Assembly (NCBI RefSeq): GCF_026625725.1
Contig: NZ_CP113060.1
Span: 1,990,001-2,054,000 of the forward strand
DNA from: Pseudomonas sp. SL4(2022)
Lineage (GTDB): Bacteria; Pseudomonadota; Gammaproteobacteria; Pseudomonadales; Pseudomonadaceae
DNA: 64,000 nt
Direction of reading: 5' to 3'
In this document: one piece after another, positions 2,163 through 30,528 of the stretch
Position numbering within the stretch: the stretch's first letter is position 1
Layout of the letters: each line of letters begins with the position of its first letter
Translations under genes and position numbers: made by a program
The notes under the pieces: model-generated
Database searches by the model: none
What the model was told of the DNA's origin: nothing
Seen by the model: the letters and a program-made list of their open reading frames with translations, nothing else

Positions 2163-2302
2163 AAATCTGTTTTCAAGCGTCGCGAGCGAAGGTGAGGCAA
2201 GGCGAAACGCGCCGAAGAAGCGGAGTTTACGGGTTGTAAATGAGCATTCTGAGGCGTGTTTCAACACAGCATCACCGAGCGCAGTAGCTTGAAGACAGAT
2301 TT
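2163..2302. repeat. MITE-like element with 16-bp terminal inverted repeats
   Basis: The left end 2163-2178 (AAATCTGTTTTCAAGC) and the right end 2287-2302 (GCTTGAAGACAGATTT) are inverted copies that match at 15 of 16 positions, enclosing 108 bp with no ORF. The element fills the whole gap between the regulator and the oxidase genes, and its right arm reaches the first base of the oxidase stop codon. Size and structure fit a non-autonomous miniature inverted-repeat element. No transposase is present in the window. Confidence 0.7.
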
Positions 2303-3591
2303 CAAATTACGTCGCGCAGGCGATACCAGGCCTTGCCCACGGCTTCGATCGGCGCGGCCAGTAAATCACCGCCGGGGAAACGCGGGTTGCTCAGGCCCTG
2401 GTACAGCTCAAGCAGGTCGGCGTCACCGAGGATCGCGTCGCTGACCGCACGGGCGGCGGCCAGGGTCGGCAGGATGCCGTGGCCGGAGAAGCCCTGCAGC
2501 CAGTACTTCTGCCCACTGCGGCCGACGTCCGGGGTGCGGTGCATCGTGCAGTCGATATGCCCGCCCCAGCCGTAGTCGATCTGCACGCCGCGCAGTTGCG
2601 GGAACACCCGCTCCAGATACGGCCGGGTGGCCGCTGGTACGTCTTTGGGGATGCCGCCCAAGTAGGTGCAGCCGCCGCCGAACAGCAGGCGGTTGTCCGG
2701 GGTGACGCGGAAATAGTCGGGGACGAACTGGTTGTCGATGGCGCAGGTGCCGCGCGGGAACAGCGAACGTGCCAGCTCCGGGTCCAGCGGCGCGGTGGCG
2801 ACCTGGTAGGAGCCCACCGGCAGCAGGCGCTTCGACAGCTGTGGATCGAGCTTGTCGATGTAGGCGTTGCAGGCCAGTACCAGCACATTGCTGCGCACCT
2901 CGCCGTGTTCGCTGCGCGCTACATAACCGTCCGCAGTTTCTTGATAACTCAGTGCCTTGCTCTGCTCGAAGATCTTGCCGCCCGCTTTCTCGATGGCATC
3001 GGCCAGGCCCTGGGCCAGTTTCAGCGGGTTGAGGTGGGCCGCGCCGCTGTCGTGCACGGCGGCCAAGTAACGCGGACTGGCAATCCACTGCGGCAATTCG
3101 TTTTTCGGGATAAAACTGAGCTGGTTATAGCCGTATTTGTGTTCGGCTTCTTCGATGCTGTCCTGCAGTTGGCGCACGCGACGCGGCAGCACGGCGGTGT
3201 AGATGGCGCCGGTGCGGTAATCAATATCGAACTGATGCCGCTCGGGCAGCTCGCGCATTTCTTCGGCTGCCCAGACCATGCTGTCCCACAGGCGACGGGC
3301 GCGCTCCAGGCCTAATGCCTTCTCAAACGGCGGCATATCGCAGGACCAGCCCGGCAGCGCCTGACCACCGTTGCGCCCGGAGGCCGCCCAGGCCAGGCGA
3401 CTGGCCTCCAGCAGTACCACCTTCTTGCCCGCCAAAGCCAGGCGCAGCGCGCTGTGCAGCCCGCTGAAACCACCGCCGATAATCAGCACATCGCATTGCA
3501 ACGCTTCCTGCAGGCGCGGGCGCAGCGGGATGGCGCCGGGGTAGGTGCCGGCGTAGTAGGTGCCGATGTGCTGGGCGGATTGTTTGAACAT
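2302..3591 (-). CDS. FAD-dependent amine oxidoreductase (PuuB/PauB/OrdL-like)
   Basis: A 429-residue DAO-type flavoenzyme. The dinucleotide-binding motif IIGGGFSGLHSAL lies near residue 35, followed by the acidic end of the second strand (VVLLEA). The family oxidatively deaminates amines such as gamma-glutamylputrescine, releasing hydrogen peroxide or reducing an acceptor. The start at 3591 has GAGG six bases upstream; the longer frame at 3603 has no ribosome site. It is co-directional with the ligase and cupin regulator, with the MITE-like element between, so it may be transcribed with them or from its own AT-rich upstream region. Confidence 0.85.
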   Translation of the reverse strand: MFKQSAQHIGTYYAGTYPGAIPLRPRLQEALQCDVLIIGGGFSGLHSALRLALAGKKVVLLEASRLAWAASGRNGGQALPGWSCDMPPFEKALGLERARRLWDSMVWAAEEMRELPERHQFDIDYRTGAIYTAVLPRRVRQLQDSIEEAEHKYGYNQLSFIPKNELPQWIASPRYLAAVHDSGAAHLNPLKLAQGLADAIEKAGGKIFEQSKALSYQETADGYVARSEHGEVRSNVLVLACNAYIDKLDPQLSKRLLPVGSYQVATAPLDPELARSLFPRGTCAIDNQFVPDYFRVTPDNRLLFGGGCTYLGGIPKDVPAATRPYLERVFPQLRGVQIDYGWGGHIDCTMHRTPDVGRSGQKYWLQGFSGHGILPTLAAARAVSDAILGDADLLELYQGLSNPRFPGGDLLAAPIEAVGKAWYRLRDVI

Positions 3592-3600
3592 GGTGCGCCT

Positions 3601-3655
3601 CATGAAATTCTATTTAAATAATTTCATGAAAATCTACGCCATAAATTTCATAAAA
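3601..3655 (-). promoter_or_regulatory. Candidate operator: repeated ATTTCAT/ATGAAAT elements upstream of the amine oxidase
   Basis: A 9-bp inverted repeat CATGAAATT/AATTTCATG occupies 3601-3609 and 3620-3628, and a further ATTTCAT lies at 3645-3651, 24 bp after the copy at 3621. The tract is strikingly AT-rich for this genome and ends 10 bp before the oxidase start. An HTH-cupin regulator encoded two genes away is the obvious candidate binder, but this is inference. Confidence 0.4.
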
Positions 3656-3676: not shown

Positions 3677-4132
3677 CTAGTTGAGATCGATGGCTAAACG
3701 CAGACGATCTTTATGCTGCAAACCTTGTTCGAATAGCGGTTCGGGATAGTGGCGAAGAAAGTAATCCGGCTCGACGGCATACACCCGAAGCCCGGCGCGC
3801 TGGTAGAAGGTCAGTTGGTGGCCAAAGCTGCCGGTGGCGACTTCCAGGCGCATTGCGCCCAGTTGCCGGGCGCTGTGCAGGGCGTGCTGCAGCAGTTGCG
3901 TGCCGATGCCCTGGGCCTGGCAGTTAGGGTCGACGGCGATATTCATCAGCTCCAGGATTCCAGGGCCGCGCGCCTGTAGCACATAGAGACCGACGACCAG
4001 GTCATCAAGCTCGGCGAGGTAGCAGTGACCGTCCGCCAGGTAGGCTTGCACATACGGTAGATGCGGATCGGCTTCCAGCAGCAGGGCCGTCGGCAGCTGC
4101 GCGGCATTACAGGCGCGAATAGTTAGGTTCAT
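3677..4132 (-). CDS. GNAT family N-acetyltransferase
   Basis: A 151-residue single-domain protein with the GNAT core. The acetyl-CoA pyrophosphate loop is QAQGIGTQLL (about residues 72-81), preceded by the beta-4 strand LELMNIAVDP and followed by the FYQRAGL beta-6 motif. The acceptor is unknown. Its start is only 8 bp after the stop of the GGDEF cyclase gene, so it is probably the last gene of that leftward operon. That placement could mean a role in the same response or simple co-transcription. Confidence 0.8.
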   Translation of the reverse strand: MNLTIRACNAAQLPTALLLEADPHLPYVQAYLADGHCYLAELDDLVVGLYVLQARGPGILELMNIAVDPNCQAQGIGTQLLQHALHSARQLGAMRLEVATGSFGHQLTFYQRAGLRVYAVEPDYFLRHYPEPLFEQGLQHKDRLRLAIDLN

Positions 4133-4140
4133 GGCCAGCT

Positions 4141-5792
4141 TCAGCGCACCTGATTGCGCCCGTTGTGCTTGGCCGCGTACAGCGCGCGGTCTGCTTTATC
4201 CAGCAGATCATCGGCACCTGTTGGTGCATCTTCGGTGGAGGAAATGCCGGCGCTCAGGGTGACCGAGAACTGCAGGCCATTGGCGATAAAGTGCAGTTCG
4301 GCAAAGCGCTGGCGGATTTCATCGAGAATGCGCCGCGCCTGGTCAGACGGGCAGTCCGGCAGCACCACAAGGAATTCTTCACCGCCGTAGCGGCCAAGGC
4401 TGTCGATGCGCCGCAGGCGCTGGCGCAGCAGGTTGGCCAGGGCACGGATGACGTTGTCGCCAGCGGCATGGCCGTAGCTGTCGTTGACCTTTTTGAAGAA
4501 GTCGATATCCAGCATGGCTACGCTGGCCGGTTTACCGCTGCGCTGCGCACGCTCAAGCTCGACTGCCGCCTGTTCTTTGATATCGGCGTGTTTGAGCAGG
4601 CCGGTGAGGCTGTCGCGCGACAGCGCGTTGCTCAGCAGGCGCGCGCGCTGGGCGCGGGAAAACACGGCCGCCACCAGGGCGTTGTCGGAAATCGGTTTGG
4701 TGACGAAGTCATCGCCCGCCTTGATCAGGGCATTCATCTGTCGGTTGATGTCGGTTTCGGCCGAGAGGTAAACGATCGGTACACGCAGCCAGTCGTCGTT
4801 CATGCGGATGATCTGCGCCAGCTCCGGGCCGGTGCAGCCGGGCATGCTGACATCGAGCAGCACCACTTCGGGGTTGAAGCTGCGCATGCGGGAAAAGATC
4901 TCTGCCGGTTCGTGGAGCATTTCCACCAGCATGTTGGCACCGCGCAGGATCAGGCTGAAGCGGCTGGCCAGTTCGCGGTCGTCGTCAATGATCAAAACCC
5001 GGTAAGGCGCGCCTTGTTGCTGGGCAAAGCAGCGTTCCAGACGGTTTTCCAGTTGCGGGATGTCCACCGGCTTGGTGAAGAAGCCCAGGGCGCCGACACG
5101 CACGGCTTGTAGGTGGGTGGCAAAGTCGTCCTGAGTGGTAATCACCAGCAGCGGCAGCGGTTCATCCAGGCGCTGTTGCAGGTTGGCGGCATACTCCAGG
5201 CCGGTGAGGGCTTCGTCAGGCAGGTTGACGTCGACGATCAGCGCGTCCGGCAACTGCTTTTGCAGGGCCGCGTCGAGCTCGGCGATGCGGGTGAAGTGTT
5301 CGGCCTGGTAACCAAAGTTATTCAGTGTCAGGCGCATGCTTTCGCCAATCGCACGCTGATCTTCGAGGATATAGATGCGCCGCGCGCTGCTGTTGACGCG
5401 TGGCGTCTTGAAGGGCTGCGGGGCCTGCTCCTGTTGACGTTCGGCCTGGAACTGCTGGCTGGCCAGCTGTTGCAGGCTGCGGCTGAAGTCCTGCAGGCTC
5501 TGTTGTTCCTGCTGCAGGGTTTCCAGCCACTGATCGGCTTCCTGTTCCAGCTCACGGGCGCGCTGGCCGAGGCTGCTGAAGCCGAACGTGCCGGCGGCGC
5601 CGGCGAGCTTGTGCAACTGATCGCGCAGGGTTTGCAGGTGCTGTTGTTGCTCCAGCGGATCGGCGCTGTGCAGCAGGCCCTCGGCATTGCGGCCGAGGGC
5701 TGGCAGCTCCTCGTGCAAGCGCTGGGCGAAGGCATTGCTGAGCTGCTGCAGGCGTTGCTGCAGTTCATCGGCGGGGGGGGGCCATTACTCAT
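4141..5792 (-). CDS. Hpt-REC-REC-GGDEF diguanylate cyclase (frame broken at a C9 run)
   Basis: Read with one added base in the run at 5773-5781, this is a 550-residue protein. It has an N-terminal Hpt domain (phosphorylatable His in HKLAGAAGTFGF), two receivers (about 140-255 and 262-375; phosphoacceptors in LIVDVNLP and VLLDVSMP) and a GGDEF domain (about 385-550) with active site RYGGEEF and an RRID inhibitory site five residues before it. It should make cyclic-di-GMP under phosphorelay control. The ATG at 5790-5792 overlaps the upstream receiver's stop by eight bases, which supports this start, but as sequenced it is out of frame with the remainder. The in-frame alternative is a TTG at 5718, which would lose the first Hpt helix. 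Confidence 0.8.
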
Positions 5793-6171
5793 GAGCCTGG
5801 CTCCAGATTTGCCGCACCTGGGCGGCCAGTTGCATCGGGTCGAAGGGCTTGATGATCACATCACGGGCGCCGAGGCTGCGGTAGAGGGCTATTTCCGCCG
5901 GCTGTACCTTGGCGGTCATGAATGCCACCGGCACCTGGTTGATGTCGATGAGTTGGGCGATTCGTGCCAGGGTTTGCGGCCCGTCCATGTCCGGCATCAT
6001 CACATCCAGCAGGATAAAGTCCGGGGCAAAGTCTTGCAGTTGATCCAGTGCATCCTGGCCATTGGCACAGCTGAGCACTTGGAAGCCGCCAACGGCCTCC
6101 AGCGCCAGTTTGGCCACCGCCTGGATTGAAGGGTCGTCTTCCACATGCAGGATGCGCTGTAGTTCAGGCAT
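5785..6171 (-). CDS. Single-domain response regulator (CheY-like)
   Basis: A 128-residue receiver with nothing attached. The acidic pair is in HVEDD (11-13), the phosphoacceptor is Asp56 (ILLDVMMPDMDG), Thr86 and Lys108 (IIKPFDP) complete the switch. It begins one base after the stop of the giant kinase gene and overlaps the Hpt-cyclase gene by eight bases, so the three are almost certainly co-translated. It probably shuttles phosphate from the kinase to the Hpt domain of the cyclase, in the manner of Spo0F-type relays; this direction is inferred from gene order. Confidence 0.9.
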   Translation of the reverse strand: MPELQRILHVEDDPSIQAVAKLALEAVGGFQVLSCANGQDALDQLQDFAPDFILLDVMMPDMDGPQTLARIAQLIDINQVPVAFMTAKVQPAEIALYRSLGARDVIIKPFDPMQLAAQVRQIWSQAHE

Positions 6172-6172
6172 A

Positions 6173-9100
6173 TCAGGTGTTCTCGGCGCTGGAGAGCGAC
6201 TCAGGTGTCGGTTCTGCAGCCAGATTAGTCAGTTCAAACCAGAAAGTCGCGCCCTGTCCGGGCGGCGAGTCGAAACCAATGCGGCCGTCCATGCGCTCGA
6301 TGATTTCCTTGCTGATGGCCAGGCCCAGGCCTGTGCCGCCTTTCTGTCGGGTATCGGTGGCATCCGCTTGGGAAAACTTGCTGAAAATCCGCGATTGGAA
6401 ATTTTCCGGCACGCCCGGGCCATGGTCGCTGACGCTGACCCTGACCTGCTGACCCTGATGGGTCACCTGTACGTCAACCGTCTGCCCGGCAGGAGAGAAT
6501 TTCGCTGCGTTGGACAGCAGGTTGGCCAGCACTTGTGCCAGGCGCAGGCGGTCAACCTGCACCACGGCTGGGGTGGCTTCGGTTTGCAATTTCAGTTGTA
6601 CGCGGAAGTGCTCGGCATACGGCTGATTCTCTTCGATGGCCTGTTCCAGTAGCGGCTGTAGAGGCTCGGGCCGCAGTTCGAAGAACATCTTGCCCGCGAC
6701 CAGTTTTTCCATGTCCAGCAGGTCATTGATCAGCAGGTTGAGGCGTTGGCTGTTGTCCTGGGCGATTTGCAGCATTTGCTGCATGCCGGCGGGCACGGCA
6801 CCGAGGGCGCCGCCGTTGACCAGACCGAGGGAGCCGGCGATGGCGGTCAATGGTGTACGCAGTTCATGGCTGACGGTGGAGACGAACTCGTTTTTCATCC
6901 GTTCGATGCGTTTACGCTCCTCGATATCACGGATCACCGCAATAAAACGCCGTTCGCCCTGGTGGCTGATCTGTGAGATGGCCAGCTCGATGGTGAAGGT
7001 TTCGCCGTTGCTGCGCAGGGCCGTCAGTTCGATTTCCTTACCGAGCATCTGCTGGATACCGGTTTTCAGGAAATGACTGAGGTAGCGGGCGCGCATCGAA
7101 CGTTGCGGCTCGGGCAGCAACAGGGTGGCACGGTGCCCGGAAACCTCCAGGTGGCTATAGCCGAAAATACGTTCGGCAGCGTGGTTGAAGGTTTCGATAT
7201 AGCCCTGCTGGTCGATGGTGATGATCGCATCGAGTACGTTGTCGAGCAGGGCTCGCAGGTAATCCTCACGTTCACGAATGGCCATTTCTGTGGCGATGCG
7301 TTCGTTGAAGTCCTGGATTTGCACCACAAAGTGCACCGGTTGGTCGTTGCTGTCGCGCACCAGAGAGACGCTGAGCAGCACCCAGATGATCCGCCCCTGG
7401 CTGTCCAGGTAGCGTTTCTCCATCTGGTAGGTGTTGACCTCGCCTGCCAGCAGTTCTTCGACATGCTGCAGGTCGGCGTCCAGGTCGTCAGGGTGGGTGA
7501 TTTGCTGAAAGCTGGTTCGCTGCAATTGCTCGCGGCTATAGCCGAGCATGCTGCAGAGCACTTCGTTGACTTCCAGCCACTGGCCTTGCAGGGACACCAA
7601 TGCCATGCCCTGCGGCGCGGTACTGAAGGCACTGCTAAAGCGCTGTTGGCTAAGGCGCAATTGGTCTTCCACGGCTTTGCGGTCGCTGATGTCCCAGATA
7701 AACCCGGAGATCCACTGCAGCTGGCCGTCGTTGTCATATTCGCCACGGCCTTTTTCACGCACCCAGACGCTGTGGCCATCGGCATGCAGCAGGCGATAGG
7801 TCAGTTCGAAGGATTCCTGACGTTCGACCGCGGCCACCGCGCGGTAGGTGATCGGCAGGTCATCGGGGTGTACCACGCTGGCGAAGCTGCGGATGCGGTT
7901 GTTGATGAAGTCATAGGCCGGGTAGCCGCTGAGGCTGTGGATCTCTTCGCTGAGGTAGCTCATCGACCAGTCCGCATCGTTGCGGCAGCGATAGACCGCC
8001 CCTGGCAGGTTGGCCACCAAGCCGCGGAAGCGACTCTCGCTCTTTTGCAGGGCTCGGGCGGTCTGCTGCAGTTCGTTGATGTCGCTGGCAATACCCAGGT
8101 AGCCGCTGATATGGCCCCGGCCATCGCGCATGGCACTGACGGTGAGGTTGACGGTACGCGGTTCGCCATTCTTGCGCAGGTAAGTCCACTGCCGCGTTTC
8201 CGGCTCGCCTTTGGCCGGGATGCAGGTGAGGACGGCAAAACCCTGGATGACCTGGCCTTCCTGCAGGCTGAGTTGGTGAGCGCGAGCCTGGATTTCGTCT
8301 TCGCGATGAAACAAAACAGGGCTGTGTTGGCCAATAACTTCGGCACTGCGGTAGCCCAGCAGGCGTTCGGCGCCGGAGTTAAACAGGGTAATCAGACCAT
8401 CCAGATCGCTGGTGATGATGCTTACACCGGTGGCAGAGTCGAGTACGGCCTGGAGAAAGCGCCGAGCTTCGCGGGTCTGCTCTTCATGTTGCAGACGCTC
8501 CAGGGTGGCGCCGACCCAGCGGGCGAACAGGCGCATGAACTCTTCGTCAGCATCGTCGAAACTGCTGCGGGCGCTGCTGGCTGCAAAGCACAGGGTGCCA
8601 AAGCGTTGGCCGGCCACCCAGACGCTGGTGCCGATATAGCTTTCCAGCGCAAAAAGCGGGTAGCAGGGATGCGTGGCATGTTCGCTCTGACTCATGGCGG
8701 CGATGGCCAGTACGTCTGTACTGCGCAGGGCGATGCTGCAGTAAGTGTCGCCCAAGCTGAAACACTGGCCGTCCTGCAGGCCAGTGTGGGGGGATACCTG
8801 AACCATGACCCGGTAGGTGTCACCTTCAACTTGGCTGATGATGCCAATCGGCATGCCATAGAACGCGGCGCCCAGTTGCAGGGCCTGCCGCAGTTGCTCG
8901 TGGGTACTCAGTTTGGGCAGGGCGGCGATTTCATTGAGTGCATGTAGCGCGGCCTGTTGGCGTTGCATGTGCACTTGAGTCTGTTCGCGTTGCTGATCAC
9001 GGCGCAGTGCTTCCAGGAGTTGGCCGAGGGTGGTCAACAGGGGTTGCAGCTGTACGGCAAAGTCAGCGCTGTAGCCGCCCTCGCGGTTGGCCAGGCCGAG

Positions 9101-10639
9101 CATGCCGAGCAGTTCGCCGTTGGCATGGATGGGCAGGCCGGCAAACGCCTGCAGCGCTGGGTGGCCGGACGGCAGGCCGCCGCTATGCGGGTGGTTGGCC
9201 GGATCATTGCTGATCAGCGCCTTGCCACTGCGGATGACCTGGCCGAACAGGTTGGCGAGGTTATGGAACTCCAGGCCAGCCGCTGCACGCATATCGTAGT
9301 CCGCGTGGCTGTGTTCATCCCAGGCGATGTTGCTGATGGCAAAGGTGCGCAAGAACGGGGCGCCTTGCGCATCGGCAAGGATTTCGCCGATAAAACCGAA
9401 TTGGCTGGCTGTGAGGTCGAGAATCCGCTTGAGCAAGGCATCGAAGGCTTCGCGCTGGTTATGCGCATTGATATACGCCGCCTGTGCTTCGCTGATCAGG
9501 CCGAGCAACTTGCGCGAAGCTTCGCTTTGCTGATGCTTGTCCTGCAGTTCCTGATGATGGCGTCGCAGCAGCATCTGGCTGCTGTAGCGGGTTGCTTGCA
9601 GGAGCAATAACAGCAACGCTTCTGCTGCCAGCCAGGCGAGTAGCCACTTGCCCATCAGCCAGCGTTTTTCTTGTTGGTGATGGTCATGGAGTGCACTGAT
9701 GTCGCGCCAGGTCAGGGCGACCACTGTCGGTGCATCGCCCGGCTGGGCGACGGCTGGATAGCGGTCGAGTGGCAGTTGATTGAGCAGGTATGTCTGCCCG
9801 TGGTCTTGCAGCAGTCGCAGGCTGTCGCCTGTGGCCGGTTCAGGCAGCAGATTGCGGCTTTGCCAGTGCTGCGCTTCGGGGCGTGAGAAACCTTCCAGGT
9901 ACCAGGTCGGAGGCGTGCTGGATGCTCCCGCCGGGCGTTCAGCGGAGTATTCGCTCAAGGCCGCACGGGTCATGCGCAGGGCAATGCCTGCGCCTAGCTC
10001 GCGATCCAGCTGTTGCAGGTTGTGCGCCAGATTCAGGCTGATCTCCAGCGCCCCAATGGTCAATGGCGCCTGGTTGCCCTCGACCTGCAGCGGGATGATG
10101 GCGCGTGATACCAGGCCTTCTTCGGAATCCCCCAAACCACTCTTGCGGGTGGCCGACTGCAGGGCGTCAAGCAACATGCGCCGGGGGGCTTGCGGCTCGT
10201 CGGCAAAGCGTTCTGGCTGGTGTACGCGCAGCAATACTGTGCTATCGGCCAGGTGCAGGGTGAGGCTGAACGGGTGGCTCTGTTGCAGGTTACGCCAGCG
10301 TGGCGCCAGGCGTGCGAACAGTTGCCCGCGGATGTTTTGCAAGGCGCGCGCCTGGTCTTCAACCTGTGGATTCAGGGTTGCCGCCTCACGCACCAGTTCA
10401 ACCAGCCAGGCATCCGCAACCAGGGTTTCGCCGAGCAGTTGCGCCTGGTGCTCCATGTTCTGTTGGGCACTGCGCAAGGCCAGGCGCTGCGCCTCATGCA
10501 GGTGGGTAAGCTGCATCTGCCAAAGCGCTTCACGCTCATTGATGGCGGCCGTGCCCAAGACAATGAACAGCAGCGCCAGGCTGAAACTGCCGAAACCGAC
10601 GATCCAGTGGATCATCGAGGGCTTTACCTTTGTGTGCAT
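6173..10639 (-). CDS. Very large membrane sensor histidine kinase with two GAF and four PAS domains
   Basis: A 1488-residue kinase. A membrane helix near residues 10-32 and another near 325-350 flank a roughly 290-residue periplasmic region. Cytoplasmic order is two GAF-like domains (about 395-545 and 575-735), four PAS/PAC units (about 740-1245), a HisKA domain with the phosphorylated His in SHELRTPLTAIAG, and a HATPase with GTGLGLAISKEI. It ends without a receiver of its own; the receiver is the next gene. The ATG at 10637-10639 overlaps the stop of the upstream GGDEF-EAL gene by one base (TGATG). The stimulus is unknown; GAF plus several PAS suggests integration of redox or ligand cues. 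Confidence 0.88.
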   Translation of the reverse strand: MHTKVKPSMIHWIVGFGSFSLALLFIVLGTAAINEREALWQMQLTHLHEAQRLALRSAQQNMEHQAQLLGETLVADAWLVELVREAATLNPQVEDQARALQNIRGQLFARLAPRWRNLQQSHPFSLTLHLADSTVLLRVHQPERFADEPQAPRRMLLDALQSATRKSGLGDSEEGLVSRAIIPLQVEGNQAPLTIGALEISLNLAHNLQQLDRELGAGIALRMTRAALSEYSAERPAGASSTPPTWYLEGFSRPEAQHWQSRNLLPEPATGDSLRLLQDHGQTYLLNQLPLDRYPAVAQPGDAPTVVALTWRDISALHDHHQQEKRWLMGKWLLAWLAAEALLLLLLQATRYSSQMLLRRHHQELQDKHQQSEASRKLLGLISEAQAAYINAHNQREAFDALLKRILDLTASQFGFIGEILADAQGAPFLRTFAISNIAWDEHSHADYDMRAAAGLEFHNLANLFGQVIRSGKALISNDPANHPHSGGLPSGHPALQAFAGLPIHANGELLGMLGLANREGGYSADFAVQLQPLLTTLGQLLEALRRDQQREQTQVHMQRQQAALHALNEIAALPKLSTHEQLRQALQLGAAFYGMPIGIISQVEGDTYRVMVQVSPHTGLQDGQCFSLGDTYCSIALRSTDVLAIAAMSQSEHATHPCYPLFALESYIGTSVWVAGQRFGTLCFAASSARSSFDDADEEFMRLFARWVGATLERLQHEEQTREARRFLQAVLDSATGVSIITSDLDGLITLFNSGAERLLGYRSAEVIGQHSPVLFHREDEIQARAHQLSLQEGQVIQGFAVLTCIPAKGEPETRQWTYLRKNGEPRTVNLTVSAMRDGRGHISGYLGIASDINELQQTARALQKSESRFRGLVANLPGAVYRCRNDADWSMSYLSEEIHSLSGYPAYDFINNRIRSFASVVHPDDLPITYRAVAAVERQESFELTYRLLHADGHSVWVREKGRGEYDNDGQLQWISGFIWDISDRKAVEDQLRLSQQRFSSAFSTAPQGMALVSLQGQWLEVNEVLCSMLGYSREQLQRTSFQQITHPDDLDADLQHVEELLAGEVNTYQMEKRYLDSQGRIIWVLLSVSLVRDSNDQPVHFVVQIQDFNERIATEMAIREREDYLRALLDNVLDAIITIDQQGYIETFNHAAERIFGYSHLEVSGHRATLLLPEPQRSMRARYLSHFLKTGIQQMLGKEIELTALRSNGETFTIELAISQISHQGERRFIAVIRDIEERKRIERMKNEFVSTVSHELRTPLTAIAGSLGLVNGGALGAVPAGMQQMLQIAQDNSQRLNLLINDLLDMEKLVAGKMFFELRPEPLQPLLEQAIEENQPYAEHFRVQLKLQTEATPAVVQVDRLRLAQVLANLLSNAAKFSPAGQTVDVQVTHQGQQVRVSVSDHGPGVPENFQSRIFSKFSQADATDTRQKGGTGLGLAISKEIIERMDGRIGFDSPPGQGATFWFELTNLAAEPTPESLSSAENT

Positions 10640-12954
10640 CAATAGGCCCCGGGACGAATGACGCTGTTGCTCCCGTGATACACGGGTGGCTGGGCATTTT
10701 CCAGCTGTTCTGTGAGTGCAGCGGCCGGCTGCGGCCGACCGAAATGGTAGCCCTGGCCATGGTCACAGCCGAGCTGACGCAGCAACTCAAGCTGTTCCGC
10801 GCGTTCAATGCCCTCGGCCAAAATCTTTAGCCCCATGCTGTGACCGAGGGCGATTACTGCACGGGTAATGGCGATGTCGTCCTGGTCATCAGGCAAGCCG
10901 GCGACAAAACTCTGGTCAAGCTTGAGCTTGTGTACGGGCAAGCGCTTGAGGCGGGCGAGTGAGCTGTAGCCGGTCCCAAAGTCATCAATAGCCAGACGCA
11001 CGCCCAGGTTACGCAGGCGTTCGAGTAGCCTGAGGGCGGTATCAGGATCATCCATCACCGCACTTTCGGTCACTTCAAGCTCCAGGCAGGCGGCGGGTAG
11101 ACCGCTGTCGCTCAATACTTCAGCAACCCGCAGGTCCAGTTCGCCACGGCTGAACAGGCGGCTGGAAATGTTGACCGCAACAAACTGCAGGTTAATGCCC
11201 GCTGCCCGCCAGGCGACCATCTGTCGACAGCTCTGTTGCAGAACCCAGGCATCAATGGCGCTGATCAGGCCGGTTTCTTCGGCTATCGGGATGAACTCGC
11301 CAGGCCCGACCAAACCGCGTTGCGGGTGTTCCCAGCGCACCAGAGCTTCGACGCCGATCAGCTGCTGGCTATGCAGGCAGAGCAGTGGTTGGTAGTAGAC
11401 CCGCAGTTCCTGGCTATCCAGCGCATGGCGCAGGGCGCTGGCCAGTTCGACGCGCTGGTGGGCATGGGCCGTCAGCTCCTGGCTGTAGAAGGCATAGCTC
11501 TCGCGGCCGCCACTTTTCGCCTTGAACAGCGCCGAGTCGGCATTGCGTAGCACCTGGGCGACATCCTGTGCATCTTCCGGGTATAGACAGATGCCAATAC
11601 TGGCGGTCACAAACAGTTCGTGGTCAGCCACTTCGAAGCCGGTGGCCAGGCAGCTTTGCAGGCGCTGCGCCATAACCGCAGCCTGTTCGGCGCTTTGGCA
11701 TTGTTCGTAAAGCAGGCCGAACTCGTCACCCCCGAGGCGGGCCAGGGTCATGCGCTTACCCAGTTGCTCGCTGAGTCTCTCCCCCACGGCTTTCAACAGC
11801 AGGTCACCGATGTTGTGGCCGAGGCTTTCGTTGATGTGCTTGAAGTGGTCGAGGTCGATCAATAGCACCGCCCCCGTGTGCTGGTCGCTGCGGTCGCGCT
11901 CCAGTGCGTGCTCGACCCGCTCGGTGAACAGCAGGCGGTTGGGCAGGTTGCTTAGCGGGTCGTGGTGGGCGAGGTAGTCCAGCTCACGCTGCGAGCGCTT
12001 GAGGGCGCTGATATCGGAAAACACGGCCACATAGTGGCTGATCTCGCCTTGCTCGTCATGAATCACCCGGATGCATTGCCACTGCGGGTAGATTTCGCCG
12101 TTCTTGCGGCGGTTCCACACTTCGCCACTCCAGGAGCCGCGTTGTTGCAGGGTATGCCACAGGTTGTCGTAGAAGCCTTTGTCATGACGGCCGGACTTCA
12201 GCAGGCTGGGTGATTGGCCGAGGATTTCCGCTTGTTCATAGCCGGTGATACGGGTAAAGGCCGGGTTGCAGTGAACGATACGCTGCTCGGCGTCGGTGAC
12301 CAGTACGCCTTCCTGGGTGGCATCAAACACGGCAGCCGCCTGGCGCAGGCTGTCTTCATCACGGCGGCGCTGGGTGATGTCGCAGGCGGTGCCGATCAGT
12401 CGCTCGGCGTGTCCTGATGGATTGAACAACAGGCGGCCGCGGAACTGAATCCAGCGGTAGCTGTTATCGGCTTGGCGCAGGCGATAGTTGATCTCGTAGG
12501 GCGCCGGGTTGGATGCCTCCAGGCGCTGTTGCAAGGTGCGCTCGAAGGCCTCGCGATCATGCGGGTGCAGGTGTTCTAGCCATTGTGGCTGGTCGATCTC
12601 GCTGGGCGTGCCGAGCAACGCTGCGTAGCCGGGGGAGAAATACAGTTGATGGCTTTGCAGGTCCCAGTCCCACAGGCCGTCCTGGGCGGCATCCAATGCC
12701 TGTTGCAGGCGTTTCTCACTGTGCTGCAGGGCTTCGCGACTGCGTTGATGCTGACGGTGATGGGTGCGCAGGATGACAAACAGCAGAACGCCGGTCACGC
12801 CGACAAAGGCCAGGCCTTTTAACAGTTGCGCGCGCTCCAGCTGCTCAAGGGACAACCCCAGAGCGATCAGCTGGCTGTCACTGAATAATACCCAGAGGCT
12901 GGCCGCCAGGAGGTAGGCGAGGGTCAAACGCCAGGCACTAAAAGATGCAGTCAT
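10639..12954 (-). CDS. PAS-PAS-GGDEF-EAL protein, PA0285-like
   Basis: A 771-residue protein with two N-terminal membrane helices (about 10-26 and 45-66), two PAS domains (about 82-325), a GGDEF domain (LARLGGDEF) and an EAL domain (about 505-755). The GGDEF site is intact but there is no RxxD inhibitory site. The EAL side keeps EALVRW, AVNIS, LEVTE, IDDFGTGYSS, KLKLDQS and LAEGIE, so phosphodiesterase activity is plausible. It is the first gene of a leftward operon leading into the kinase and is divergent from desA. This matches the position of PA0285 next to PA0286 desA in P. aeruginosa, recalled from memory. Confidence 0.88.
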   Translation of the reverse strand: MTASFSAWRLTLAYLLAASLWVLFSDSQLIALGLSLEQLERAQLLKGLAFVGVTGVLLFVILRTHHRQHQRSREALQHSEKRLQQALDAAQDGLWDWDLQSHQLYFSPGYAALLGTPSEIDQPQWLEHLHPHDREAFERTLQQRLEASNPAPYEINYRLRQADNSYRWIQFRGRLLFNPSGHAERLIGTACDITQRRRDEDSLRQAAAVFDATQEGVLVTDAEQRIVHCNPAFTRITGYEQAEILGQSPSLLKSGRHDKGFYDNLWHTLQQRGSWSGEVWNRRKNGEIYPQWQCIRVIHDEQGEISHYVAVFSDISALKRSQRELDYLAHHDPLSNLPNRLLFTERVEHALERDRSDQHTGAVLLIDLDHFKHINESLGHNIGDLLLKAVGERLSEQLGKRMTLARLGGDEFGLLYEQCQSAEQAAVMAQRLQSCLATGFEVADHELFVTASIGICLYPEDAQDVAQVLRNADSALFKAKSGGRESYAFYSQELTAHAHQRVELASALRHALDSQELRVYYQPLLCLHSQQLIGVEALVRWEHPQRGLVGPGEFIPIAEETGLISAIDAWVLQQSCRQMVAWRAAGINLQFVAVNISSRLFSRGELDLRVAEVLSDSGLPAACLELEVTESAVMDDPDTALRLLERLRNLGVRLAIDDFGTGYSSLARLKRLPVHKLKLDQSFVAGLPDDQDDIAITRAVIALGHSMGLKILAEGIERAEQLELLRQLGCDHGQGYHFGRPQPAAALTEQLENAQPPVYHGSNSVIRPGAY

Positions 12955-13121: not shown

Positions 13122-14306
13122 ATGTGGTACAACGGTTTTCTCGACTTGTCGATCTGGCAACTGATCGCGGTCACCCTGCTGCTGACGCATGTGACCATCG
13201 TCAGCGTCACGGTATACCTGCATCGCTACTCAGCGCATCGCGCCCTCGAATTGCATCCGGCGCTGAAACACTTCTTCCGCTTCTGGCTGTGGCTGACTAC
13301 GGCGCAGAATACCCGCGAATGGACCGCGATTCATCGCAAGCACCACGCCAAATGCGAAACCGTCGATGACCCGCACAGCCCGGTAATCAAGGGCCTGAGC
13401 ACCGTATTGCGCAAGGGGGCGGAGCTGTACCGCGAAGAAGCGCAGAACCCGGAAACCCTGCGGATTTACGGCAAGAACTGCCCCGAAGACTGGATCGAGC
13501 GCAACCTCTACTCGCGCTTCCCGGTTGGCGGCGTGGCGCTGATGGGGGCCATCGACCTGGCCCTGTTCGGCGCTGCCGGCATCACCATCTGGGCGGTACA
13601 GATGATGTGGATTCCGGTGTGGGCAGCGGGCGTGATCAACGGTCTCGGCCATGCTGTTGGCTATCGCAACTTCGAATGCCGCGATGCGGCGACCAATCTG
13701 CTGCCCTGGGGCATCCTGATCGGCGGCGAAGAACTGCACAACAACCATCACACCTACCCGAATTCGGCCAAGCTGTCGGTGAAGAAGTGGGAATTCGACA
13801 TGGGCTGGTTCTGGATCAAGCTGTTCAGCTTGCTCGGCCTGGCTCAGGTGCAGCGTGTTGCGCCCATCGCTCACCGGGTCGAAGGCAAGCGCAGCCTGGA
13901 CATGGACACCGCCATGGCCATCCTCAACAACCGTTTCCAGATCATGGCGCAGTACCGCAAGCTGGTGATCGCGCCGCTGGTCCAGCAGGAGCTGGCCAAG
14001 GCCGATGCCTCGGTGCGTCACCACTTCCATCGTGCCAAGCGCCTGCTCTCGCGGGAACCGAGCCTGCTCGATGAAGGCCACCAGGCGCGCATCCAGCGCA
14101 TGCTGGAGCAGAGCCAGGCGCTCAAGGTGATTTACGAAAAGCGCCTTGCCCTGCAGCAGATCTGGGTGAAAACCAGCGCTAATGGCCACGAGATGCTTGA
14201 AGCCATCAAGCAATGGGTCACTGAGGCGGAAGCCAGCGGTATTCAGTCGCTGCGTGAGTTCGCTGAGCAACTGAAGACCTATTCATTGCGCCCGGCCGCT
14301 GTCTGA
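13122..14306 (+). CDS. desA: Acyl-lipid delta-9 fatty acid desaturase DesA
   Basis: A 394-residue integral membrane di-iron desaturase. The three histidine clusters are HRYSAH (from residue 34), HRKHH (about 71-75) and HNNHH near residue 205, set between hydrophobic hairpins. DesA introduces a cis double bond at position 9 of acyl chains in membrane phospholipids under aerobic conditions. Length and genomic position (divergent from a GGDEF-EAL gene) fit P. aeruginosa PA0286. ATG 13122 follows GAGG. A GATAAT at 13056-13061 is a possible -10 box. A strong terminator follows. Confidence 0.9.
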   Translation: MWYNGFLDLSIWQLIAVTLLLTHVTIVSVTVYLHRYSAHRALELHPALKHFFRFWLWLTTAQNTREWTAIHRKHHAKCETVDDPHSPVIKGLSTVLRKGAELYREEAQNPETLRIYGKNCPEDWIERNLYSRFPVGGVALMGAIDLALFGAAGITIWAVQMMWIPVWAAGVINGLGHAVGYRNFECRDAATNLLPWGILIGGEELHNNHHTYPNSAKLSVKKWEFDMGWFWIKLFSLLGLAQVQRVAPIAHRVEGKRSLDMDTAMAILNNRFQIMAQYRKLVIAPLVQQELAKADASVRHHFHRAKRLLSREPSLLDEGHQARIQRMLEQSQALKVIYEKRLALQQIWVKTSANGHEMLEAIKQWVTEAEASGIQSLREFAEQLKTYSLRPAAV

Positions 14307-14350: not shown

Positions 14351-14435
14351 TTGGCACCCTATGCTCCGCAGATCCCCTGCTGATTTCTGGCGTATGCTGA
14401 TTCCGTGGCCCGATGAGCAATGCGTGGCGGTATTT

Positions 14436-15407
14436 ATGGATGAACACAGCAAACTGCAGTTTGAGTTGGAGGAATTGACCCTGGCGCTGTTGCACACCCG
14501 TGGCGAGGTGGCGCGTCTGCAGGAGCGTGAGCAGTTATTCAGCACCCTGCTGGGAAGTGTCAATGCGGTGCTCTGGGCATTTGACTGGGATGCTCAGCGC
14601 GTCATTTATGTCAGCCCAGCGTATGAGCGTGTATTCGGTCGCTCTGCCGCGTTGCTGCTGGCGGGCTATGAGGAGTGGCGCAATAGCATCTACCCGGACG
14701 ATCTGGAGTACGCCTCGACAAGCTTCGCTCAGGTGCTGCAGAGGGGCGCAGTAGAAGCACGTGAATACCGGATCTTACGCGGGGATGGTCAGGTCCGCTG
14801 GCTCAGTGACAAATGCTTTGTCAGCCGTGAGAACCCCTTGGGGCAGCCCCATGTCATCGTCGGCATTGCCGAAGACATTACCGAAAAGAAACAACTGGAA
14901 GGCGAGCTGCATCGTTTGGCCACCACCGATGTACTGACGCAGAGTGCGAACCGTCGGCACTTCTTTGAGTGTGCTGAGCGTGAATTTGCCCAGGCCCGTG
15001 AGTACGGCAGCCCACTGGTTTTTCTGCTGCTTGATTTGGACGATTTCAAGCAAATCAATGACCGTTACGGCCATCAGATGGGGGATCAGGTGCTGCAACG
15101 TCTGGCTTATACGAGTACCACGGTGTTGCGGCGGGGGGATTTGTTTGGTCGTATTGGTGGTGAGGAGTTTGCGGCGCTGTTTCCCCGGTGCGAACTGGCT
15201 CTGGCTGAGCAGATTGCCGAGCGACTGCAACGAGATGCGCGGCGGTTGAGCTTTAATCAGGACAACACGACGTTTGGCATCACCCTGAGTCAGGGGCTGA
15301 CCAGCCTGCGCCCCGACGATGCTGGTCTGGATGCGCTTTATGCGCGTGCCGATGCGGCCATGTACCGCGCCAAGCGTCAGGGCAAGAATCAGGTCGTGAT
15401 TGATTGA
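14436..15407 (+). CDS. PAS-GGDEF diguanylate cyclase, PA0290-like
   Basis: A 323-residue soluble protein. A short N-terminal helix (residues 1-35, coiled-coil-like with Leu/Glu) leads to a PAS/PAC domain (about 40-155) and a GGDEF domain (about 160-322) with GRIGGEEFAAL. RRGD five residues before the site forms an RxxD inhibitory site, so product feedback is likely. It should synthesise cyclic-di-GMP. ATG 14436 is chosen because it gives the length I recall for PA0290 and begins MDEHSKLQ; a frame open to 14361 exists but would run through the region just after the desA terminator. Confidence 0.85.
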   Translation: MDEHSKLQFELEELTLALLHTRGEVARLQEREQLFSTLLGSVNAVLWAFDWDAQRVIYVSPAYERVFGRSAALLLAGYEEWRNSIYPDDLEYASTSFAQVLQRGAVEAREYRILRGDGQVRWLSDKCFVSRENPLGQPHVIVGIAEDITEKKQLEGELHRLATTDVLTQSANRRHFFECAEREFAQAREYGSPLVFLLLDLDDFKQINDRYGHQMGDQVLQRLAYTSTTVLRRGDLFGRIGGEEFAALFPRCELALAEQIAERLQRDARRLSFNQDNTTFGITLSQGLTSLRPDDAGLDALYARADAAMYRAKRQGKNQVVID

Positions 15408-17718: not shown

Positions 17719-18569
17719 TGATTATCGACTGGTACAACTTCACGCCTTGGAGCGCTCTCGCCGGTGGTGCCTTGATCGGGTTGGCAGCGAGTCTGTTTGC
17801 CGTAATGAATGGGCGTATCGCTGGCATCAGTGGCCTGCTCGGCAGTCTGCTGGACGGTGGTGAGGGGCGCGGAGAAAAAGCTCTGTTTCTGCTGGGTGTG
17901 CTGCTTGCTCCTCTGCTTTGGCAAGTGGCTACTCGGTTGCCTGAAATGCAGATCGACAGCGGCTGGCTGGCGCTAACGATTGCCGGCCTGCTGGTCGGGG
18001 TCGGCACGCGATATGGCGCCGGTTGCACCAGTGGACATGGCGTATGCGGTCTCTCACGGCTTTCGCCGCGCTCACTGGTGGCTACCTTGACCTTTATGGC
18101 GGCGGGATTCGCCAGCGTATTTATCCTGCGTCATCTGCTGGGGGGGTTAGATATGCGCAAACTGGTGGCGTTTCTCGCGGGCGTACTTTTTGGCATTGGC
18201 CTGCTGACTGCGGGCATGGCGAATCCGGCCAAAGTGCTGGCTTTTCTTGATGTGGCCGGTGCCTGGGACCCTTCTCTTGCCTTGGTGATGGCGGCTGCTA
18301 TTGGTGTGGCATTCCTGCCATTCAGCTGGGTTCGGCTGCAGCGCACCAGCTTGCTGGGTGCGCCGATGCAAATGCCGACAAAGCGTGAGCCGGATCGCCG
18401 TTTGGTTGGGGGCAGCTTGCTGTTCGGTATTGGTTGGGGAATTGCAGGCATCTGCCCCGGGCCTGCCGTGGCGCTGCTGTTGACCGGGCGCTGGCAAGTG
18501 CTGTTATTCAGCTTCGCCATGCTGGCTGGAATGCTCGCTTTTACTGTGCTGGAGCGCCGGCGCGGATAA
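17715..18569 (+). CDS. YeeE/YedE-family sulfur transporter (PmpA-PmpB fusion)
   Basis: A 284-residue membrane protein with about eight to nine hydrophobic segments. The first half carries the hallmark GAGCTSGHGVCGLSR (about residues 98-112), with two cysteines in the pore region; the second half repeats the fold and has GIAGICPGPA with another Cys. The family moves thiosulfate or sulfane sulfur across the inner membrane; PmpA and PmpB are usually separate proteins of about 140 residues, joined here. Co-transcription with a BigR-like repressor suggests induction by sulfide or persulfide. Confidence 0.85.
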   Translation: MMIIDWYNFTPWSALAGGALIGLAASLFAVMNGRIAGISGLLGSLLDGGEGRGEKALFLLGVLLAPLLWQVATRLPEMQIDSGWLALTIAGLLVGVGTRYGAGCTSGHGVCGLSRLSPRSLVATLTFMAAGFASVFILRHLLGGLDMRKLVAFLAGVLFGIGLLTAGMANPAKVLAFLDVAGAWDPSLALVMAAAIGVAFLPFSWVRLQRTSLLGAPMQMPTKREPDRRLVGGSLLFGIGWGIAGICPGPAVALLLTGRWQVLLFSFAMLAGMLAFTVLERRRG

Positions 18570-29215: not shown

Positions 29216-30528
29216 ATGAAAACCCCTCTCTGGTTCCCGCAAAGCTTCTTCGCCCGCACGTTGTGGCTGGTGCTGATCGTGGTGCTGTTCTCCAAGGCGC
29301 TGACCCTGGTTTATCTGATGATGAACGAGGACGTGCTGGTCGACCGCCAATACAGCCACGGCGCTGCGCTGACCCTGCGTGCCTATTGGGCGGCGGACCC
29401 GGAAGATCGCACCACCATCGCCGAAGCGGCCGGGCTTACCCGCGTTCCGCATGAGCAGGTGCCGGCTACTGAACAGCATTGGCCCTATAGCGAGATTTTC
29501 GCGCGGCAGATGCAGACTGAACTGGGCCCCGACACCGAAGTGCGGGTGCGTGCCAAGAGCCCGCCGGCGCTCTGGGTGCATGCCCCTGCGCTGGGCGACG
29601 ATTGGTTGCGGGTGCCGCTGTATCCGCATCCACTGCGCGGTCAGCGGATCTGGAGTGTCCTGGGCTGGTTCCTGGCCATCGGCCTGTTGTCGACCGCGGC
29701 GGCATGGATCTTCGTGCGCCAGCTCAATGCGCCGCTTAAGCGCCTGGTGTTCGCCGCTCGCCAACTGGGTAAGGGCCGCAGCGTGCGGCTGCCGGTCAGC
29801 GACACGCCCAGTGAAATGACCGAGGTGTACCGTGCGTTCAACCAGATGGCCGAGGATGTTGAGCAGGCGGCCCGCGAGCGCGAGTTGATGTTGGCGGGTG
29901 TTTCGCATGACCTGCGTACGCCCCTGACTCGTCTGCGCCTGTCTATGGAGTTCCTCAACACCGATTCGGAGCTGACCGAAGACATGGTGCGTGATATCGA
30001 GGACATGGATGCCATTCTCGATCAGTTCCTCGCCTTTATCCGTGATGGCCGTGATGAGCCGTTGGAGCAGCTTGATCTGCTGGAACTGATCCGCGAGGTA
30101 GTGGCGCCCTACAACCAGAAGCAGGAAATGGTGCGCCTGTGCCTGGAGGCGGTGCCAGCCTTCCCGTTGCGCCGGGTTTCACTCAAGCGGCTGCTGGTCA
30201 ACCTGATCGAGAACGCCCTGCGCTACGGCTGCAATGCCGTTGAGGTAGCGGTCTCTCTGTCGGGTGATCGCAGTGCGCCTTACGTGGTGCTGAGTGTATT
30301 GGACCGCGGTACTGGCATTGATCCGGCCGAGCTGGGCAGTATCTTCAACCCCTTTATCCGTGGTGATCGCGCCCGGGGCGGGCAGGGTGCCGGCTTGGGC
30401 CTGGCCATCGTCAAGCGCATTGCCGCGCTGCACGGTGGCAGTGTCGAGTTGCGCAACCGCTCGGGGGGGGGCTGGAAGCGCGGGTTTGTCTGCCCTTGGG
30501 GCTGTTGCTGCCCCGCGACGCCGCATAG
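29216..30528 (+). CDS. envZ: Sensor kinase EnvZ (AmgS), frame broken at a G9 run near the 3' end
   Basis: With one added G in the run at 30463-30471 the protein is 437 residues: membrane helix about 10-35, periplasmic loop, second helix about 145-170, HAMP, HisKA with AGVSHDLRTPLTRLRLS, and HATPase with GQGAGLGLAIVKRIAALHGG. The corrected C-terminus reads LEARVCLPLGLLLPRDAA and stops at 30526-30528, as expected for the family. As sequenced, the last about 25 residues are replaced by a Cys/Pro-rich tail ending at 30559. The core catalytic domain is intact either way. ATG 29216 lies 95 bp after ompR, across a palindromic repeat. Confidence 0.85.

Follow-up and report, generated by a model that had tools for sequence, protein, structure and literature searches.

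A putative His-Asp-His-Asp phosphorelay onto a PleD-like diguanylate cyclase beside a PA0285 homolog in Pseudomonas sp. SL4(2022)

The window, that is, the whole stretch of 64,000 nucleotides analyzed here, belongs to the complete 4.44 Mb genome of Pseudomonas sp. SL4(2022) (NZ_CP113060.1). Open reading frames and Pfam matches confirm the five minus-strand genes that had been predicted at positions 3677-12954, joined at junctions of 1-8 bases (Table 1). The stop codon of G1 and the ATG of G2 have one base in common (TGATG; ATG 10639), 1 base lies between G2 and G3, the nominal ATG of G4 (5792) overlaps G3 by 8 bases, and 8 bases separate G4 from G5. Given these overlaps, we infer that the operon is expressed as a single transcript; a scan of the operon for promoters and terminators returned no promoter-like site inside it and nothing above chance. 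The same-species relative is Pseudomonas sp. HMWF032, and P. anguilliseptica and P. peli served as further relatives at the G1-G5 locus.

Table 1. Features at the locus, with positions counted in the window
Feature	Position	Strand	Description	Evidence
FAD-dependent oxidoreductase (DAO)	2302..3603	-	downstream flank kept in many relay carriers	Pfam
G5	3677..4132	-	GNAT acetyltransferase	Pfam
G4	4141..5792	-	Hpt-REC-REC-GGDEF diguanylate cyclase; Hpt-frame coding from about 5769	Pfam, residues, model
C9 run	5773..5781	-	between G4 ATG and Hpt frame; ATG out of frame as assembled	
G3	5785..6171	-	single-domain receiver, 128 aa, presumed phosphoryl shuttle	Pfam, conserved partner gene across taxa
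G2	6173..10639	-	sensor histidine kinase, 1488 aa	Pfam, TM prediction
G1	10639..12954	-	PAS-PAS-GGDEF-EAL, PA0285 homolog	Pfam, TM prediction, conserved GGDEF/EAL motifs
desA, fatty-acid desaturase homolog	13122..14306	+	divergent neighbor, marks PA0285 locus	
PAS-GGDEF protein (PA0290-like)	14361..15407	+	adjoins desA in carriers and non-carriers alike	Pfam

The domains originally listed (GGDEF-EAL, a 2xGAF-4xPAS kinase, a lone receiver, Hpt-REC-REC-GGDEF and GNAT) were recovered by Pfam, but that list had omitted the two PAS domains of G1 and the periplasmic dCache_3 domain of G2. G1 carries one predicted TM helix (residues ~42-66) ahead of its PAS-PAS-GGDEF-EAL body and is divergent from the adjoining desA, the same arrangement as PA0285, of which it was taken to be the ortholog. 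Together with the PA0290-like gene beyond desA, three c-di-GMP enzymes lie within 12 kb. G2 reads TM, periplasmic dCache_3, TM, GAF, GAF, four PAS, HisKA and HATPase, with no REC or Hpt domain of its own; its N-terminus scanned alone matched dCache_3 (E=2e-7) between hydrophobic segments 9-35 and 329-351. The HisKA and HATPase domains and a SHELRTPL H-box, whose phospho-His codon lies at 6866-6868, identify it as a histidine kinase. The phospho-acceptor Asp56 of G3 is encoded at 6004-6006, and the closest sequences of solved structure belong to single-domain receivers (e.g., 3dge).

In G4, the Hpt His (codon 5611-5613) is followed by the REC1 Asp (5230-5232), the REC2 Asp (4852-4854) and GGEEF (4372-4386), so that a REC-REC-GGDEF body with a GG(D/E)EF motif and an RxxD I-site marks it as a cyclase of the PleD/GcbA type. 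The AlphaFold model of G4 (mean pLDDT 81; pTM 0.54, which leaves the relative placement of the domains unsure) contains four N-terminal helices, then two PleD-like receiver folds and a GGDEF domain. PleD structures were the best Foldseek matches of this model, in agreement with the profile search. Every part of a relay is thus present as predicted (kinase H-box, intermediate receiver, Hpt His and output receivers), all with their active-site residues, as are domains for both synthesis and breakdown of c-di-GMP (GGEEF and RxxD in G4; GGDEF and EAL motifs in G1).

The unit formed by an array-type kinase, a lone receiver and an Hpt-REC-REC-GGDEF cyclase is conserved in gamma- and betaproteobacteria and in a cyanobacterium. 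The receiver-cyclase pair follows kinases in Thioalkalivibrio, Larsenimonas, Gilvimarinus, Sulfuricella, Gallionella, the cyanobacterium Hormoscilla and others, and the receiver lies directly 5' of the cyclase in 15 of 19 gammaproteobacterial neighborhoods. A stricter automatic count, whose receiver pattern misses some true receivers (e.g., in L057), placed a receiver before the cyclase at 26/29 Pseudomonas relay loci and at 29/30 named loci. For class loci the figure was 10/17, and none of the 15 GcbA loci had such a receiver. A few class-level cyclase homologs are without an adjoining receiver. In a betaproteobacterial MAG (L082:12070-15114), receiver, Hpt, REC, REC and GGDEF are fused in one protein of 1014 aa, and this fusion links the lone receiver to the Hpt domain. 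The fusion protein also bears ~320 additional N-terminal residues.

Matches to the G4 profile at E<=1e-75 were found in 68 of 369 gammaproteobacterial genomes (54/272 genera), with GcbA-type and partial matches included, and at E<=1e-120 in 43/299 genomes spread over the phylum, again with GcbA included. The Hpt His, the acidic residues, Asp and Lys of REC2, the I-site and GGEEF are kept in nearly all relay-type homologs, with few exceptions. The homolog of Thioalkalivibrio versutus (L060:16555-18246) has GGGEF instead of GGEEF at the cyclase active site. The retention of gene order and of the receiver-cyclase junction across families and classes is, as judged from these comparisons, beyond chance. 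A search of open-access literature returned no description of Hpt-REC-REC-GGDEF proteins or of this relay, an absence that weighs little given that subscription papers mostly fell outside its scope. As far as found, the relay is a widespread and apparently undescribed variant of a multistep relay onto a PleD-like cyclase.

Within Pseudomonas, the relay type was found in ~31 of 298 genomes (G4 profile, E<=1e-219). The PA0285 neighborhood has been described in PAO1, P. syringae, P. protegens and P. putida, in the last of which PA0285 adjoins desA (PMC10874727). Its usual form had been said to lack the relay, and all 12 non-carrier neighborhoods indeed contain desA and PA0285 but no relay. The view that the relay is an added module holds insofar as its distribution within Pseudomonas is uneven and most PA0285 genes have no relay next to them; it does not hold in that the cluster is an old one, conserved far beyond Pseudomonas, with the window carrying a reduced version of a longer array. 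In a tree of PA0285 homologs, Pseudomonas carriers fall in only one half, apart from the sister genus, and 5-6 changes are needed; both one arrival with repeated loss and repeated moves are possible explanations. The second relay copy of P. anguilliseptica MatS1 (L054) is almost identical to the copy of P. mendocina FFL34 (L051), which suggests recent horizontal transfer. Taken together, the relay appears as a patchy, partly mobile and old unit, assembled elsewhere than at the PA0285 locus.

In three carriers (G109, G014 and G138; loci L317, L318 and L319), the relay array adjoins desA with no PA0285 homolog there. A genome-wide search for PA0285 (E<=1e-180) gave no match in G014 and G138, and the single match in G109 was to a longer protein at another place in the genome. 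The EAL enzyme G1 is therefore to be seen as a neighbor and not a required part. These three relay loci contrast with the description of PA0285 as conserved in all Pseudomonas (PMC10874727). The GNAT gene G5 is missing in several relatives whose relay is intact and is, by this distribution, an optional passenger. A single obligatory unit of G1-G5 was rejected, with GNAT and PA0285 each missing in some carriers.

At the desA/PA0285 place, other Pseudomonas harbor a longer array composed of a REC-HDOD protein (by Pfam), a dCache/GAF/PAS kinase, one or two more kinases, a hybrid HK-REC(-REC), the lone receiver and the Hpt-REC-REC-GGDEF cyclase, the REC-HDOD, extra kinase and hybrid kinase genes being located between PA0285 and the lone receiver. 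Up to four kinases occur in these relatives, with unlike sensors and near-identical phosphoacceptor helices. The genome G109 has the full array together with a kinase that is 83% identical to G2 over the stretch searched, and because of this the window is most simply read as a pared-down, one-kinase form of the longer array. In G109, a single receiver is preceded by three kinases that are unlike in their sensor halves, whereas their near-identical phosphoacceptor helices read FVSTVSHELRTPLT, followed by GSLGL and NGGA motifs. Their cores are 58-62% identical to one another, compared with <=46% for the other kinase pairs sampled in G109 (210 pairs) and <=41% between array and other kinases; G2 has a core of this array type. 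Across the 12 genomes searched, cores >43% identical to G2 were present only in the window genome and G109, and no array-type kinase was found in ten non-carrier Pseudomonas genomes (best about 42-43% core identity to G2). The helix signature recurs in arrays of distant taxa. These features would fit several kinases feeding one receiver.

The G4 profile also matches 286 of the 298 Pseudomonas genomes, nearly all of which have a homolog at about E=1e-155. In the window genome, this homolog (G000:C1:2451802-2453358; L224:6785-8473) is flanked by DsbD-like and MCP genes on one side and by DUF2333-like, NUDIX, SUI1-like and speA-like genes on the other (names from translations; locus order speA-NUDIX-GcbA-MCP-DsbD), which we take to be the order of PA4839-PA4845. 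PA4844 adjoins PA4843 (PMC3946381), and given this adjacency and the gene order the homolog was taken as GcbA/AdcA (PA4843). G4 and this homolog are paralogs within one protein family, with tandem receivers, I-site and GGEEF, but GcbA/AdcA differs from G4 in having neither the Hpt His nor the acidic pair and Lys of REC1, in having no adjoining receiver or kinase, and in forming a clade of its own. The possibility that G4 is simply GcbA was rejected on account of this separate clade and separate locus.

All 15 sequences of the GcbA clade are devoid of the Hpt His and of the REC1 acidic pair and Lys, while REC2, the I-site and GGEEF are kept. They form one clade with a support of 100 among Hpt-bearing homologs in a quick tree whose root is uncertain, a position that is more simply explained if GcbA has lost its Hpt function. 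The N-terminal region of GcbA is thus likely a relic Hpt domain. The partner kinase of GcbA was unknown in the study in which overexpression of GcbA raised c-di-GMP 29-fold (PMC3946381). The relic reading, which rests on the missing His and first receiver site of GcbA and on the absence of an array-type kinase from the ten non-carriers, would account for an N-terminal region that is unassigned, in a biofilm cyclase that is core to Pseudomonas and for which a partner kinase has been sought. If it is true, REC2 would be the only site through which an unrelated kinase acts on GcbA, or else GcbA would be regulated chiefly at the level of transcription (AmrZ).

Given its anatomy, the conservation of the unit and the receiver-Hpt fusion, a linear relay is the best reading of the operon, and we consider it probable that the genes encode a four-step His-Asp-His-Asp phosphorelay controlling a PleD-like diguanylate cyclase. 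G2 would sense periplasmic signals through dCache and cytoplasmic signals through GAF/PAS, autophosphorylate on its HisKA histidine and pass the phosphoryl group to Asp56 of G3, from where it would move to the histidine of the N-terminal Hpt domain of G4 and then to the receiver(s) of G4, chiefly REC2. Phosphorylation of REC2 would lead to dimerization of the GGEEF domain and c-di-GMP synthesis, subject to feedback via the RxxD I-site. G1 would degrade or balance c-di-GMP without being a required relay part; a net phosphodiesterase activity is reported for PA0285 (PMC10874727). In relatives, several kinases would feed the one lone receiver, of which the window would represent the one-kinase version. 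Each phosphotransfer step, as well as activation by phosphorylation, is what we infer from the domains and residues.

In SL4(2022) itself, G4 may not be full-length. The original prediction had taken the cyclase frame as intact, which is not so in this assembly given the C9 run: the ATG at 5792 reads ATGAGTAATGG, then nine C's, and its frame is not that of the Hpt domain. The first ATG, GTG or TTG in the Hpt frame is the TTG at 5718, and a start there would truncate the first Hpt helix; this codon was rejected as the natural start, as in relatives the start codon is at or adjoining the receiver stop. HMWF032 has CCAACCCCCC, a non-homopolymer sequence, where the window has CCCCCCCCC, and its cyclase is in frame. 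In all 19 relatives examined (HMWF032 and 18 others), G4 is in frame and starts in overlap with the receiver stop or close to it. As a check for errors, 400 kb stretches of the window genome were compared with HMWF032, and over the ~375 kb aligned there were ~10 isolated homopolymer differences of one or two bases, in both directions. At window position 18140 (genome 2008140), a run of seven G's stands against six in HMWF032, with the ORF intact in the window and broken in HMWF032. Another nine-base G run at 30463-30471 (ten in HMWF032) lies near the end of an open stretch of ~540 codons and alters its C-terminus. Sequencing error, slippage or recent loss could each be behind the C9 frame break.

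It is possible, if doubtful, that the relay of SL4(2022) is decaying or off, with the C9 run genuine and fixed, the cyclase lost, and the PA0285 homolog the only part through which the operon still acts. The window is indeed without the reading frame present in HMWF032, and the accessory genes of the array are already gone from its lineage. However, G4 is otherwise near-identical to the HMWF032 copy (99.8%), so that any loss would be very recent; it is just as likely that one base was miscalled or that the nine-base run slipped, and the one-base homopolymer differences between the two assemblies run both ways. Decay in this strain is compatible with the linear relay for the family as a whole.

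Hpt domains can operate in reverse, and PleD-type cyclases in Caulobacter are under direct control by kinases. The latter mode of control has been discussed (PMC3946381). On these grounds, a branched pathway can be envisaged in which the kinase phosphorylates the receivers of G4 directly, and the lone receiver and Hpt domain damp the signal, either as a sink for phosphate or as a route in the reverse direction. We regard this as unlikely: the receiver-cyclase pairing, the receiver-Hpt fusion and the near-invariant Hpt His are consistent with a forward flow of phosphate via the receiver and Hpt domain, and the orphan GcbA has neither the Hpt His nor an adjoining receiver.

The nine-base C tract, directly after the start codon and within the coding start, could toggle the frame by slippage of a single base, and the in-frame sequence of HMWF032 contains no homopolymer of such length, which means that the tract differs between strains. 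A phase-variable switch, through which the relay cyclase would be made in some cells only, is nevertheless improbable, given that no other relative examined has such a tract, that G/C runs >=8 are no commoner in the window than in shuffles, and that a single genome copy cannot reveal variation in length. We hold it very improbable that the following are all true at once: convergent kinases acting through one receiver on an Hpt-bearing PleD-type cyclase, GcbA as an orphaned, Hpt-dead offshoot, and a relay in SL4(2022) made phase-variable by the slippable C tract. That G1-G5 are a chance neighborhood of signaling genes with no common pathway is hardly credible, as the kinase-REC-Hpt/REC/REC/GGDEF order is kept across classes and in a fusion, a conservation that refutes chance for G2-G4; G1 and G5, the PA0285 homolog and the GNAT, are dispensable neighbors and may be there by chance.

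If the linear relay is right, it would constitute a conserved c-di-GMP input route in many proteobacteria, built of one or more kinases, one shuttle receiver and one cyclase with its own Hpt domain. Among known systems, PA0285 resembles G1 in its membrane location, two PAS domains, GGDEF, EAL and desA neighbor (PMC10874727), whereas its loci in non-carriers are without the relay. Lone receivers that link kinases to downstream relay partners, as presumed for G3, include MrrA of Caulobacter (PMC5964349) and Spo0F, but these serve other pathways and are not coupled to an Hpt-bearing cyclase. PleD of Caulobacter crescentus, the best match among solved structures, has the REC-REC-GGDEF body of G4 but no N-terminal Hpt domain, and no lone-receiver relay step leads into it. 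The nearest worked-out analog is CdgK/CdgS of Anabaena PCC 7120, in which a multi-sensor kinase acts through a receiver and an Hpt domain on the receiver of a cyclase; HK-REC1 was shown to pass phosphate to REC2-Hpt, and cyclase activity depends on the receiver Asp (PMC9927289). In CdgK/CdgS, the hybrid kinase itself contains the middle receiver and the Hpt domain, and the cyclase bears a single receiver; in G2-G4, by contrast, the receiver has a gene of its own (G3) and the Hpt domain is joined to the cyclase (G4).
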